The notes under the pieces are model-generated. The model was not told the DNA's origin. It saw only the letters and a program-made list of their open reading frames with translations, and did not search any database. DNA of 64,000 nucleotides from Albula goreensis. Its lineage: Eukaryota; Chordata; Actinopteri; Albuliformes; Albulidae. Within the stretch, counting starts at the first letter, position 1. Every line of letters starts with the position of its first letter. The stretch spans positions 28,835,832 through 28,899,831 of the forward strand of contig CM040746.1 in the NCBI GenBank assembly GCA_022829145.1, written 5' to 3'. Positions 18,166-63,662 of this stretch are shown in pieces. The translations under genes were made by a program, and so were the position numbers.

Positions 18166-20224
18166 ATGATGGACCCAGTAATGGGTGAGAATGCATCCAG
18201 ATGGGCCTGTGGTGTCACCTGCAGCAACAACAGTGGTGACAACAATGGTCAGGGTCCTCCTGACCAGCAGGAGGCACTGTTTAGCATGCTGGAGCTCGTG
18301 TTGGTGACAACGGTGTGTGTGGTGTTGCTGGTGGTGGGCCTGGTGGGAAACACACTGACCATCCTCGTGGTCCGGCTGCGGCGTGACCTGCGAAGCACCA
18401 CCTACATGTACCTGTGCAGCATGGCTTTCTCTGACATCTTCATCTTCCTGCTGATGCCTGTTGACCTCTACAGGGTACTGCCCAAAGGAAATTGGCTCTG
18501 TTTCATAGTGCAAATACTCCCTTTTTGCCATTGCAGTCTACTTCTCCCCTGCGCTCTCTCTTTCTCTGTTTTTTTTCATGTATGTCATTAAATTAATTGC
18601 AGGATGCTTGTGTACAGAGCAGTTTATTTTTCTATTTATTTGTTTAGTCATCTACAGAATTAGTCGCACCCTTTTCACAGATTAACTGTCTTTGCAAGAC
18701 TAACCAAAAATAAGTAATGTGCTATAATTTAAACAACTTAGAAAATCATGTATGCCTATTCAAATGCATTTTTTTCTGAGAAATAGTTTAATTTTCTATG
18801 TATAATTTCTTTATAGAAATGTGTGTCAGTATTATTGGCACCCTCTGTTGCAACCTTTCTGCAGCTGTGGCGATACCGGCCCTGGCTCCTGGGAGACCTG
18901 GTCTGCAAGCTGTCGCAGTTTGTGAGTGAGGTCTGCACCTACTCTAGCATCCTGCACATCACAGCCCTTAGTGTGGAGCGCTACTTAGCGGTCTGCTTCC
19001 CGCTGCGGGCCAAGGTGCTGGTGACCCGCGGCAAGGTGAAGGTCCTGATCGGGCTGCTGTGGGTCCTGGCCCTGGCCAGCGCTGGGCCCATCTTCGCCCT
19101 GGTGGGTGTGGAGCAGGTCGGGGACAGTGGTGAAAGCGAGTGCCGCTGCACACAGTATGGTGCAAGCTCGGGCCTCCTTGGCATCATGACCTGGCTCTCC
19201 AACCTCTACTTCCTGGTACCCCTCTGCTGCCTCAGTCTTCTATACAGCCTCATCGCCCGCAAACTGTGGCACCGCCGGCACTGTGCCAACCGCGACCGAG
19301 CCAACCGCCAAACTGTCAAGATGCTTGGTAAGAGTATGGTGCAGTGTCTGTAAAAGGACAGCAGGAGCTTGATGGATCGATTGGCCCTTTATTAATCCCA
19401 GCATTGAAATTCACACCCACCTGCAGTAACTACTAAAACACCAGTTCATCAAAGCAGCAGTATGTTGCACTATAATGAGTAATAGTAATGTAAGAAGAGT
19501 TAGTGGGGTCCAGGCATTTAAAAAACAGTGGATACATGTACATTTTAGGTCTGAGAGGAGAGAGGGACAGAAATATTTATTTTAAAAATGACTTTGACAG
19601 TAATGTGTTTTTACCGAAAACAATTTGCATAGCCTGTATTTTTAGACACAAATGCTGTAGTTACTAGCTAAACACTGTATTGGGTCTTGATTTAATTATG
19701 TACTATTGCCCAGGGTACAGCCCCAGTACACCATACAGAATCTGAAACCATTATTTTCTGTTGTGATCCAGTGCTGTAAATCACAAATCCCATTTATTTT
19801 ATGTGTTATTTTATGATTATTCAACTCCATTCAACTCCATCTTTACTTTCAACTCCTTCTCTCTCACTCTCATTCTCTGTCTCTCTGTCTCTCTCTCTTT
19901 CCAGCAGTGATCGTGCTGGCTTTTGTCCTGTGCTGGCTTCCTTTCCACGTGGGCCGCACCCTCTTCTCTGTTTCGCTGGGCACCAGCCCAGACATGTACT
20001 ACATCACCCAGTATTTCAACCTGGTTTCCTTTGTGCTCTTCTACCTCAGCGCCGCTATCAACCCCATCCTGTACAACACCATGTCGGCCCGTTACCGCTC
20101 TGCTGTCCGTGGCCTGCTGGGTCTTTCTGCCAGGGGAGAAAGGCATCAGAGCCGGGGGGAGCCTTCCCCCCACCCTCAATATTCTCAAACCCCCCAACAT
20201 TCCCAATCCACAACCTATATGTGA
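18166..20224 (+). CDS. ghsr: Ghrelin-receptor-like class A GPCR
   Basis: A seven-transmembrane receptor of the ghrelin/motilin family, closest by eye to GHSR. Exons: 18166-18474, 18865-19327, 19905-20224; 363 aa against 366 in human GHSR1a. Family marks include TM1 GNTLTILVV, first-loop LWRYRPWLLGDLVCKL, ERY at residues 141-143, CFPLRAKVLVT, TM6 FVLCWLPFHVGR and TM7 NPILY at 310-314. Glu125 in TM3 and Arg275 in TM6 match the human GHSR residues Glu124 and Arg283 needed for ligand action. The N-terminus has two N-glycosylation sequons. The second intron, at KML|A before TM6, is the classic GHSR intron. The first, after TM2 at LYR|LWR, is absent from mammalian GHSR. Its donor GTACTG is weak but the join is exact. 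ATG 18166 is followed by a second ATG at 18169. The motilin receptor is the main alternative. The gene symbol is approximate; this may be a separate GHSR paralogue. Confidence 0.85.
19901..19907 (+). other. Tandem NAGNAG splice acceptor in the GHSR-like gene
   Basis: The third exon is preceded by CCAGCAG. Use of the first AG gives KMLAVIV, as in GHSR. Use of the second removes the alanine at the start of TM6 (KMLVIV) without shifting the frame. Confidence 0.6.
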
Positions 20225-21566
20225 TGGAACATCACAATGGGAATGAGGGGGGAATTGCCTGATTTGTCCACGTTTGTCCCAGGAGTATACTGGCAGTATA
20301 TGCATGTTTTTTTGAGGAGGAGATTGGGGAAAGAATGAGGATGGATCAATGCTGTTTGTTCCTCGGACTGCCTGAATGACATAGATGTGTCTCTGTGAGA
20401 GAAGGTTGCTAAGTGACCAGAGCCAACATGTGAAGGGGTCCAGGTGGGCAGGGTGAGGTGGTGCCGGGGTTGGATTGAGAGGTTTAGGCGGGGGGTGGGG
20501 TGGTCGAGTTGCTGTTGAATCTCTCCAGGGCAGTTGGTTGTGCTATCCGCTAGAGCTAGGAGGAGTTGTGATAATTTGGTGACAAAGCTAGGTTCAGATA
20601 GCCCTTTGGAAATATCCAGTCCATCAGTGGAAAGTGGTATGATGTATCCTGAGTTTATTTGCACTAAAAATGTAAAAATGGTCACATGGGCTGATGTAAT
20701 GGAACTGTTTCCTGTCCAGGGGGTGTAATTGTGCTACAAGCTGCTCTACAGATGAGGTCAGACAACCTTATACCTGAGGGGCACTCCAGGAATCAGAAAT
20801 GTTTTCTCCTTAAATTTCTGTATGATACCATGACAAAAAAAAATGGAGACAGCTGGAGGGCATGAGAAAAGAAAATGTCAGTGGAGGGTGGGCGAGGTGA
20901 AGGGAGAGGGACTGATGAGAGCTGCAGAAAACAACGGTGGTGACTGTGCTGCCCCCAAAACCGTGGAAATGGAGATGGATACGAGCGGAACACCATAACA
21001 ATATGAGAACACTAAGGTGTGCATGTGTTTGTGCTATATTACACGGATGGTGATTCTCAGACTGAAAAACACATGAATAGACATTGCCTCTGTTTCCCCA
21101 GGCTACAGCTTCTGTGGCCTGCCCCCTCCTCGCCCCATGAATCTCCATTTCTGCCATGGCCAAGCCTTGTTTATGGCTTCTCTTTTTTTCCTACTTTAGT
21201 GGAGCAGCAGGGGTTAGTTCAGGGTCAACCAGGAAATGCACTACGACTTGGAAAAAACAGTAACCGAATTGAACCAAAACCGCTGTTGGCTTGCTGTCAG
21301 TTTTCCTTGTGAATGATACGTTAATTTATAACTAAATGGACTCAACTTTTTCTAATGACATTAAATAGTATGTGATATTATGTCATTACACAATTGCCTA
21401 TTATATATCATATATCATTAAACAATAACACCAGAACCCAGGGACTATGAGTTTTATGTATTTTGACAAGTCATTTCATGCCATATTAATTGCCAGTTTT
21501 TTTCCCATTCATTTCAGCCAGTTTCAGCATTTTTTAATATTTTCTATATAACTCTGTAGAATTGTA

Positions 21567-63000: not shown

Positions 63001-63662
63001 TCAGTGTTTTTGCCAGTGATGGCTGTCCCCTATTTCTGTGACCAACATTACTGCCCGTAACCTTTTCTATCTGCACACCTGAGATAAATGTAGTTTTATG
63101 TGTCCTGTGTGAACAGTAGCTTTTCGGTTATAATTAAATGAATAGTTCTGAAATTAACAATGGGAAGATAACTACCATTTGTAAGTGTTATATTTAAATG
63201 CCAATCCAACAAAGAAACTCATATTTAAATTATTCAAATACATGTTTTTGAAAGTAACCATTTGTAAATATTCAAATCCTGTAAGCACTTAAATACTTGT
63301 GGCTTTCATAGATATTAATAAAGCTATTTTGTCCCAGGTCTGGTGACTATAATTACTCCTTAACATTGATTAAACATATAAAATGTACAAAAAATTATCA
63401 AGCAGTTCTCCTAGTGACATCTTTGGTAAATTCTCTCTCTGTGCTCCCCAGCTCGATCCTGAACGTGCCGGGAGAGTCGACGCTGAGGCGAGACTTCCTG
63501 CGCTTGCAGCAGGAGAATAAGGAGCGCTCGGAGGCCCTGAAGAGGCAGCAGGCCCAGCTGGGAGCCCAGCGCCGCGACCCAGAGGAGCACAAGAGGCAGC
63601 TGCTGCATGACCGGCAGAAACGCATCGAGGAGCAGAAGGAGCAGAGGCGCCGGCTGGAGGAG
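51030..63662 (+). CDS. mink1: Misshapen-like kinase 1 (MINK1), N-terminal part
   Basis: A Ste20 kinase of the GCK-IV group (MINK1/TNIK/MAP4K4), acting in JNK, cytoskeletal and Hippo-related signalling. Exons: 51030-51086, 57270-57335, 58056-58238, 58565-58675, 59225-59315, 59745-59875, 60685-60739, 62209-62287, 62524-62699, 62847-62916, 63452-63662, giving 410 residues in frame. The gene continues past the right edge, so the rest of the coiled coil, the linker and the CNH domain are not seen. The kinase domain is complete: glycine loop GNGTYG at 32-37, catalytic Lys54, HRD Asp153, DFG Asp171, [20 protein letters not shown] and a Glu/Arg/Gln coiled-coil start follow. MINK1 rather than [41 protein letters not shown] and KKFIDFI follow MINK1, and pld2 is next door as in human. 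Intron 1 is 6.2 kb and holds repeats. ATG 51030 begins the conserved N-terminus. Confidence 0.94.
53110..53200 (+). repeat. Degenerate tRNA-type SINE fragment
   Basis: The string GTTCAGATCCCTGGTGGGCT followed by ATTACTGCTGTCTCTTTGAGTAAAG resembles the fish SINE body in which a B box is followed by CTGCTGTTGTACCCTTGAGCAAGG. It lies in mink1 intron 1. Confidence 0.45.
53570..53594. repeat. (AC)n microsatellite in mink1 intron 1
   Basis: A 25-nt AC run. Confidence 0.85.
55790..56420 (+). mobile_element. Decayed LINE reverse-transcriptase fragment in mink1 intron 1
   Basis: The translation gives [15 protein letters not shown], then [18 protein letters not shown] and [12 protein letters not shown], and after frame changes [12 protein letters not shown] and RDGVPQV. 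This order matches reverse-transcriptase motifs of CR1/L2/Rex-type LINEs: vlEK..., F.sGFr..HsTetA, D.g...a..fiDl, and later GVPQGS. The catalytic FADD block is not recognisable. Stops and frameshifts make it a relic. Confidence 0.65.
56808..56831. repeat. Poly-A run in mink1 intron 1
   Basis: About 22 A residues. A comparable T run lies at 57114-57135. Either may be the tail of an old retroelement. Confidence 0.75.
58745..58880. repeat. Degenerate SINE-like repeat, copy 2
   Basis: Collinear with 22165-22312: it shares the CAGTCC, GACCTCCAGC, GACTAG..ACCCAGTC, CTTTAC and GCCACC blocks. It lies in mink1 intron 4. Confidence 0.5.
59893..59920 (+). repeat. (TC)n microsatellite after mink1 exon 6
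   Basis: A 28-nt TC run starting 17 nt past the donor at 59876. Confidence 0.9.
60090..60245. repeat. Possible dispersed repeat remnant in mink1 intron 6
   Basis: The stretch GGCTTGACATCGCTTAACAC ... GTGGCCTGTTCTCTTCA resembles a tail seen in many fish interspersed repeats. Family and ends are not defined. Confidence 0.3.

Follow-up and report, generated by a model that had tools for sequence, protein, structure and literature searches.

The GHSR-like receptor gene in a 64,000-nucleotide stretch of the Albula goreensis genome (the window) is very probably a sister of GHSR that dates from the early-vertebrate genome duplications (2R), kept beside pld2 and mink1, with GHSR itself kept twice (after 3R) beside pld1 and tnik. 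This reading is based on gene content, gene order, parallel blocks and trees in which the human and fish GHSRs together form the receptor's sister group. It bears on the origin of the extra ghrelin-receptor-like genes of fish, which stand in print either as teleost-specific and motilin-derived (2016) or as GHSR2 (2019). Parallel ATP13A3-receptor-PLD-kinase blocks would mark one such gene as an old 2R sister of GHSR, and make pld2-mink1 the place to look for the receptor in every vertebrate.

The receptor gene and its neighbours

An ATP13A3-like gene, PPP1R35, the receptor, pld2 and mink1 all lie on the plus strand (Table 1). The earlier note had listed an ATP13A3-like gene, a GHSR-like receptor, pld2 and mink1 in that order on one strand; the gene models bear out content, order and strand, but PPP1R35, which lies in between, went unmentioned there. 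Within the window, Rfam at gathering thresholds gave no match and a tRNA scan gave no tRNA.

Table 1. Features of the window, with positions counted from its first nucleotide
Feature	Positions	Strand	Description
ATP13A3-like P5B ATPase	85-9223	+	5' end beyond window edge; 24 spliced segments
PPP1R35	11345-14842	+	PF15503 E 6.8e-12; upstream neighbour of receptor
GHSR-like receptor, exon 1	18166-18474	+	N-terminus through TM2 end; ATG at 18166
Extra phase-0 intron	18475-18864	+	390 nt, after DLYR
GHSR-like receptor, exon 2	18865-19327	+	ECL1 through TM6 start
GHSR-like receptor, exon 3	19905-20224	+	TM6-TM7, C-terminus, stop
pld2 (phospholipase D2)	32446-45660	+	Complete; start codon read by eye
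mink1 (misshapen-like kinase 1)	51030-63662	+	11 exons; kinase domain and coiled-coil start; continues beyond window

The receptor gene is intact: three exons (18166-20224) encode 363 amino acids with no internal stops, the frame is open across all three, and the introns have GT-AG borders. The ERY and NPxxY motifs and the disulfide cysteines are kept, as are most pocket residues. Among the best 60 of 727 matches to solved structures, the top relatives are human GHSR (382 bits), the motilin receptor (309) and neurotensin receptor 1 (191). By its sequence, with the E3.33-R6.55 pair kept, the protein is assigned to the GHSR/MLNR (ghrelin-motilin receptor) family.

The ATP13A3-like gene has no stops and shows 60% identity to human ATP13A3 over 968 residues; its model is uncertain at the opening segment and at several of the short ones, and the stop was taken from the open reading frame list. 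ATP13A2 is its best solved relative among the matches listed. The corresponding genes on C24 and C13 are nearer to it than is the one on C12, and it may represent one more duplicate belonging to this block, not the ATP13A3 orthologue proper. For PPP1R35, the spliced match scored 284 versus 60 in a reversed control, and the window locus is the only place found genome-wide with the PF15503 profile.

The PLD and kinase genes were compared with human sequences. Identity of the former is 62.1% to PLD2 versus 59.2% to PLD1, and over 903 columns there are 121 PLD2-only and 96 PLD1-only matches. Scores against PDB entries are 944 bits for PLD2, 906 for a PLD1 chimera and 877, over a shorter span, for PLD1. 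The PLD1 loop is missing, 137 PLD1 residues being absent in both the window gene and PLD2. The second short segment of the automatic pld2 model is an artefact. The kinase gene shows 88.0% overall identity to MINK1, 86.5% to TNIK and 86.6% to MAP4K4, and in the kinase domain 93.4%, 88.4% and 89.9%, respectively; exclusive matches number 15, 5 and 2. Past the kinase domain the values run against MINK1 (TNIK 79.8%, MAP4K4 75.0%, MINK1 69.6%). Against solved structures of equal span, MINK1 scores 661 bits and MAP4K4 651, with MAP4K4 chains a few residues longer reaching 662-665. Judged by these sequence matches, the two genes are pld2 and mink1, as the earlier note had named them, and not pld1 and tnik. 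At position 63662, where that note ended its region, the last mink1 exon contained in the window stops.

Parallel blocks in one genome

Searches over the 932 Mb assembly found six members of the GHSR/MLNR family, on C6 (the window), C24, C13, C2, C11 and again C6, at 32.38 Mb. Those on C24 and C13 are two GHSR orthologues beside pld1-tnik; those on C2 and C11 form the motilin-type pair. Copies of pld1 lie on C24 and C13 and copies of pld2 on C6 and C2, with the kinase genes paired in the same way (C6/C2 and C24/C13), and ATP13A3-like genes are found on C6, C24 and C13. The order receptor-PLD-kinase is identical on C6, C13 and C24, and three neighbouring families, PLD, MINK/TNIK and ATP13A3-like, are duplicated in parallel on C6 and C13/C24. 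Three of the six receptor loci, the window counted among them, lie at most 50 kb (a distance chosen after the data were seen) from one of five PLD loci, which under random placement has a probability of ~3e-9. The linkage of receptor and PLD genes is not due to chance.

GHSR loci are marked by PLD1-TNIK, FNDC3B and TNFSF10, and human 3q26, 13q14, 7q22 and 17p13 form one related set. One gene list for human 17p13 gives PLD2, MINK1 and, further along, CAMTA2, and GHSR is not in it. The copies of the whole block would derive from 1R/2R, and the receptor copy would have been lost at human 17p13.

In the second pld2-mink1 block, on C2, searching the genome at E 1e-6 brought up no receptor, and in the 6.8 kb upstream of its pld2 no receptor relic was found by tblastn (best E 1.2). 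Spliced alignment to this segment gave 109 for one strand and 95 for the other, versus 77 and 79 in one reversed control; these scores were not accepted as a relic. Receptor loss thus does occur in the lineage, a point in favour of regarding the window gene too as a decaying or non-functional copy. Set against the open three-exon frame, GT-AG borders, conserved motifs and cysteines, and largely retained pocket described above, that idea is barely credible.

Tree position and competing origins

The trees were sampled from one fish genome and human, with gar, coelacanth, shark and other tetrapods outside the sample. In them, human GHSR and the C24 and C13 genes form a group whose sister is the window receptor, with support of 96/99 for all rows and 93/99 when GPR39 is left out; four further builds give the same placement with bootstrap values of 87-99. 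A clade of human and both fish GHSRs that excludes the window receptor has support of 82-99, and the receptor stands outside it in 6/6 builds that include the C24 and C13 rows. Given this sampling, its split predates the human-fish split. Its branch is long (0.55-0.83). Identity is 55% to human GHSR, within a range of 55-58% for GHSR, and 48% to MLNR, and the C24 and C13 proteins are 74% identical to human GHSR. Approximately unbiased (AU) tests are marginal when the receptor is constrained to a place within the two fish GHSRs (p 0.081, 0.058) or with the motilin group (p 0.058, 0.041); placement with L014 gives p 0.14 and 0.16.

A direct GHSR orthologue was considered and rejected, from the neighbours pld2 and mink1 and the position outside the GHSR clade, the marginal AU values notwithstanding. 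That the gene is a GHSR orthologue evolving fast and moved by chance would suit its long branch and the fact that GHSR is its nearest human gene. The same genome already holds two ordinary GHSR orthologues, however, and three neighbouring families are duplicated in parallel, so that this origin is very improbable.

Somewhat less far-fetched, but still very unlikely, is an origin from GHSR by a teleost-specific (3R) or later duplication, with a move to pld2-mink1. The gene comes from a fish, its identity to GHSR is 55-58%, the AU test gives no firm rejection of a place inside the fish GHSR pair, and GHS-Ra-LR2a and LR2b have been read as products of fish-specific duplication (Tine 2016, PMC4797157). 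Yet two GHSR copies are already placed at pld1-tnik, pld2-mink1 has a pair of its own on C6 and C2, and the clade of human plus fish GHSR excludes the window receptor. The published GHSR2 clade, if it is the same gene, takes in gar and coelacanth (PMC6504862).

Descent from the motilin-receptor line, as an MLNR ohnolog (MLNRB), is comparably doubtful, indeed marginally more so. LR2a and LR2b adjoin MLNR in the tree of Tine 2016 (PMC4797157), the MLNRB set of the 2019 survey may include gar and fishes (PMC6504862), and the AU test against this grouping is only marginal. The window receptor nevertheless groups with GHSR, away from MLNR, in 7/7 builds, and the genome's motilin-type pair sits elsewhere. 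It also carries Ile 4.60, Gln 3.29, Ser 3.32 and Phe 7.39 as in GHSR, unlike the Phe, Leu, Gly and Leu of human MLNR.

From the parallel blocks and the tree position, the most likely identity of the window receptor is therefore that of a GHSR ohnolog from 2R, in agreement with the earlier note, which had proposed a whole-genome-duplication sister; the AU tests of rival placements are only marginal. Grouping inside a single GHSR clade, with pld1-tnik devoid of ghsr, had been named there as a contrary outcome, and so had PLD and kinase genes of pld1/tnik identity; GHSRs on C24 and C13, a receptor outside their clade, and pld2 and mink1 as its neighbours were found instead. As to the further suggestion of an under-described receptor, not simply the GHSR orthologue, the type is already catalogued as GHS-Ra-LR2 (PMC4797157), and probably as GHSR2 (PMC6504862).

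Predicted ligand and comparison with known receptors

Pocket positions are as in GHSR at 21/24 sites in the window receptor and at 15/24 in the motilin receptor. D99, R102, E124, I178, M213, S217, H280, R283 and F286 are kept; the changes, which count against the reading given here, are Val214 to Thr, Phe290 to Leu and Phe119 to Ser, of which the first brings a polar group into cavity II. From the overall resemblance, acyl-ghrelin binding and response are predicted. The protein would be a cell-surface class A peptide receptor coupling to Gq/calcium like GHSR. An acylated ghrelin-type peptide would be bound in a split pocket that the Glu(3.33)-Arg(6.55) salt bridge keeps in shape, its acyl chain being housed in the small second cavity left open by Ile(4.60). 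The ghrelin/motilin peptide profile PF04644, which describes a very short peptide, gave six matches in the genome, all below cut-off (best E 1.0); four of these loci together hold three loose core motifs, none in a convincing frame.

A broader proposal is put forward tentatively, at slightly less than even weight. The jawed-vertebrate ancestor may have had a second working acyl-ghrelin receptor by pld2-mink1, which ray-finned fish, and perhaps the coelacanth, would still use and which tetrapods would have lost. With loss in tetrapods and retention in fish, fish ghrelin would act through two receptor lines parted at 2R, and published fish work would have mixed ohnologs with orthologues.

Among published fish receptors, Tine 2016 lists GHS-R-like genes flanked by PPP1R35 in zebrafish and cavefish; cavefish GHS-Ra-LR2b has CAMTA2 as a flanking gene besides PPP1R35 (PMC4797157). 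In human, CAMTA2 lies at 17p13. The LR2 genes are there derived from the motilin receptor line and called teleost-specific; the LR2 sets, whose flanking genes are mixed, may comprise two or more genes, and PLD2 and MINK1 go unnamed (PMC4797157). The PPP1R35 flanks of LR2a and LR2b and their retained ghrelin-receptor key residues are as in the window, and the short third intracellular loop of the window receptor recalls LR2b. LR2 was published beside the motilin receptor clade, whereas the window receptor groups with GHSR, which is discordant if they are the same gene.

GHSR2 was named in a 2019 survey as a clade of gar, 10 fishes and coelacanth, with ENSLOCP00000000036 as the gar sequence; in the available part of that survey it occupies one sentence, without synteny, gene structure, ligand or PLD2 (PMC6504862). 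Like the window receptor, GHSR2 lies close to GHSR in the tree, occurs in ray-finned fish and has no human member. Neighbours and tree position suggest that the two are most likely the same gene.

With MLNR, of the same family, the window receptor shares the salt-bridge pair, but it is unlike human MLNR in the latter's bulky Phe(4.60), Leu(5.40) and long ECL2. GHSR has two exons, the first reaching residue 265 (PMC3713435), and its TM6 intron is placed identically in the window receptor, as the phase-1 intron ahead of exon 3. The window receptor differs by one added intron after TM2, found in it but in none of the other five family members of the genome, and by its neighbours, which are PPP1R35, pld2 and mink1 where those of GHSR are PLD1 and TNIK.

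Gene content of the window and identity of the receptor's neighbours

Five genes are found consecutively on the + strand of the window: an ATP13A3-like gene, PPP1R35, a GHSR-like receptor, pld2 and mink1. Gene models were made by purpose-written spliced protein-to-DNA alignment with human sequences as guides, and none has an internal stop. The earlier note listed the same genes but omitted PPP1R35; its coordinates match the receptor ATG and the final mink1 exon inside the window. PPP1R35 is the sole PF15503 locus found by profile search of the genome; its human counterpart is on 7q22, not 17p13. 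A tRNA scan of the window and an Rfam search at gathering thresholds were both negative, and no gene was recognised by eye among open frames of ≥70 aa in the 12 kb between receptor and pld2 (20225-32445). In human, FNDC3 is located between PLD1 and GHSR.

Genes of the window (nucleotide positions) and related loci on Albula goreensis chromosomes (C numbers)
Feature	Location	Strand	Basis
ATP13A3-like P5B ATPase	window edge (85) to 9223 (9.2 kb)	+	spliced alignment
PPP1R35	11345-14842 (about 11.3-14.84 kb)	+	PF15503, spliced alignment
GHSR-like receptor	18166-20224	+	spliced alignment
pld2	32446-45657	+	spliced alignment
mink1	from 51030, continues past window	+	spliced alignment
GHSR/MLNR-type loci	window (C6); C24 6.680 Mb; C13 2.662 Mb; C2 48.21 Mb; C11 22.65 Mb; C6 32.38 Mb		genome search with receptor query
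pld2 loci	window (C6); close sister C2 25.281-25.292 Mb		genome search
pld1-type loci	C13 2.699-2.720 Mb; C24 6.628-6.650 Mb; C21 12.35 Mb (12.346-12.359 Mb)		genome search
mink1 loci	window (C6); C2 25.260 Mb (coiled coil 96% identical)		genome search
tnik-type loci	C13 2.785-2.807 Mb; C24 6.542-6.562 Mb		genome search
Further MINK/TNIK/MAP4K4-type kinases	C21 (two); C5 (one)		genome search
ATP13A genes	window; C24 8.50 Mb; C13 14.36 Mb; more distant one on C12		genome search

Compared with human sequences, the window PLD is 62.1% identical to PLD2 and 59.2% to PLD1, displays 121 exclusive matches to PLD2 versus 96 to PLD1 in 903 shared columns, and lacks 137 PLD1 residues that are also missing from PLD2. 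Against the PDB set it scores 944 bits with PLD2, 906 with a PLD1 chimera and 877 with PLD1 over a slightly shorter span. Residues 8-310 of the window kinase score 661 bits with MINK1, 651 with one MAP4K4 chain, 642-646 with TNIK chains of like length and 654-665 with slightly longer MAP4K4 chains. With the human sequences of MINK1, TNIK and MAP4K4, overall identities are 88.0, 86.5 and 86.6% and exclusive matches 15, 5 and 2, respectively; the kinase domain favours MINK1 (93.4, 88.4 and 89.9%), whereas the post-kinase stretch does not (69.6, 79.8 and 75.0%). The sequence margin alone suggests MINK1 only modestly, but the assignment is firm once location is counted, because the gene adjoins pld2 and separate tnik genes lie beside pld1 in the same genome. 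Identities, exclusive matches and these separate pld1-tnik loci bear out the earlier naming of the neighbours as pld2 and mink1, not pld1 and tnik.

Parallel blocks and receptor phylogeny

The assembly (932 Mb, 208 contigs; window at C6:28,835,832-28,899,831) has at least six GHSR/MLNR-type genes at ≥52% identity to the window receptor as query, with the next matches at 39%; gene counts for this genome are lower bounds. The order receptor-PLD-kinase is identical on C6, C13 and C24, where the C13 and C24 kinases are taken to be tnik from their position beside pld1 and ghsr. The C2 copy retains pld2 and mink1, and no receptor was detected there at E 1e-6 in the genome search or by tblastn in the 6.8 kb upstream. 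Three of the six receptor loci are ≤50 kb from one of five PLD loci; the chance is ~3e-9 under random placement, a figure that counts the window among the three and uses a 50 kb limit picked after the data were seen. Receptor and PLD are both on the + strand in the window, an orientation that PMC4797157 treats as preceding an inversion in teleosts at GHSR-PLD1. Relative to this arrangement the C13 and C24 receptors are flipped, as in the zebrafish of that paper.

A third pld1-like gene is present on C21 together with two of the further kinases; the genome-search matches include no GHSR/MLNR-family receptor on this chromosome, which perhaps carries another remnant of the paralogon. The two chromosomes with GHSR orthologues, C24 and C13, also carry ATP13A3-like copies, and the window copy is perhaps an ohnolog of ATP13A3 itself.

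In trees that join the six Albula genes to human GHSR, MLNR, NTSR1 and NMUR2 (PDB-checked), NMUR1 and GPR39, human GHSR plus the C24/C13 pair form the sister group of the window receptor (support 96/99 with the window receptor included; 91/93 for those three alone). With GPR39 removed the values are 93/99 and 91/95, and four further builds kept both nodes (bootstrap 87-99 and 83-99); a first, seven-row tree also placed the receptor with GHSR (93/93). The C2 and C11 genes form a motilin-type pair. The sixth gene, L014, at 32.38 Mb on C6 and 3.5 Mb from the window, has a long branch, is unplaced and may be the published MLNRB. AU tests give softer separation than the support values: p is 0.081/0.058 for the window receptor within the fish GHSR pair, 0.058/0.041 with the motilin group and 0.14/0.16 with L014. 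The C24 and C13 genes are each 74% identical to human GHSR; the window receptor is 55% identical to it, close to the 52% between GHSR and MLNR. The proposed position outside the GHSR orthologue clade holds in the trees, more softly in the AU tests, and pld1-tnik has its own ghsr in this species on both C24 and C13.

Receptor gene structure and predicted ligand pocket

Mammalian GHSR has two exons (PMC3713435). Each of the other five family members detected in the Albula genome carries TM1-TM5 in a single open exon. A second intron (18475-18864, 390 nt, phase 0) occurs in the window gene alone, after DLYR, with a weak donor (AGG|GTACT) and a good acceptor. The full receptor requires its splicing because of an in-frame stop at 18589; most simply, the intron is a gain in the line of the window gene. 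Unspliced, exon 2 would continue into 19328-19353 for eight codons after KML and end KMLGKSMVQCL-stop. Such read-through would yield a predicted truncated receptor resembling GHS-R1b, a truncated form described in PMC3713435.

At 24 pocket positions, 15 from PMC12009760 and PMC4797157 and nine further ones (119, 120, 123, 198, 210, 276, 302, 305, 313), the window receptor matches human GHSR at 21, whereas human MLNR matches human GHSR at 15. Over 22 positions, the Albula GHSR orthologues and the window receptor each show three differences from human GHSR, with position 290 common. In the motilin receptor the acyl cavity is closed mainly through Phe 4.60 and Leu 5.40 (PMC12009760, a review); the window receptor has Ile and Thr instead. 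An acyl-ghrelin pocket is therefore plausible. The main caution on this predicted pocket is that a polar Thr would lie inside a cavity described as hydrophobic.

Origin and published relatives

The C24/C13 and C6/C2 pairs each look like a 3R pair. The split between them predates the human-fish divergence: both PLD1/TNIK (TNIK at 3q26) and PLD2/MINK1 are present in human, and in the trees human and fish GHSR group to the exclusion of the window receptor. The parsimonious account is that the window receptor is a 2R ohnolog of GHSR, which would have disappeared from C2 following 3R and, separately, from human 17p13. In PMC5791184 the 17p13 list reads PSMB6, PLD2, MINK1, CHRNE ... CAMTA2, with GHSR absent. 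Parallel blocks and tree position support the earlier note's reading of the receptor as a whole-genome-duplication sister of GHSR, and this evidence for a 2R origin beside pld2-mink1 is what is new here.

The earlier note also termed the receptor under-described. Its type is already catalogued, as teleost GHS-Ra-LR2a/b (PMC4797157) and as a gar, fishes and coelacanth clade named GHSR2 (PMC6504862), which limits the novelty; we infer that the window gene is GHSR2. In the non-subscription literature searched, GHSR2 as a word occurs in one other paper, which deals with canine carcinoma. Text searches found no mention of PLD2 or MINK1 in PMC4797157 or of PLD2 in PMC6504862, and among the matches listed from non-subscription literature (titles and abstract openings) none linked PLD2 or MINK1 with a receptor of the ghrelin type. 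PMC4797157 views LR2 as restricted to teleosts and descended from the motilin receptor line, though gar is in its list. The same source gives PPP1R35 and BAHD1 as flanks of zebrafish LR2a, and PPP1R35 and CAMTA2 as flanks of cavefish LR2b. CAMTA2 is eight entries past MINK1 in the 17p13 list (PMC5791184), and therefore the PMC4797157 table already contained the link. As published there for zebrafish and cavefish LR2, PPP1R35 adjoins the receptor in the window.
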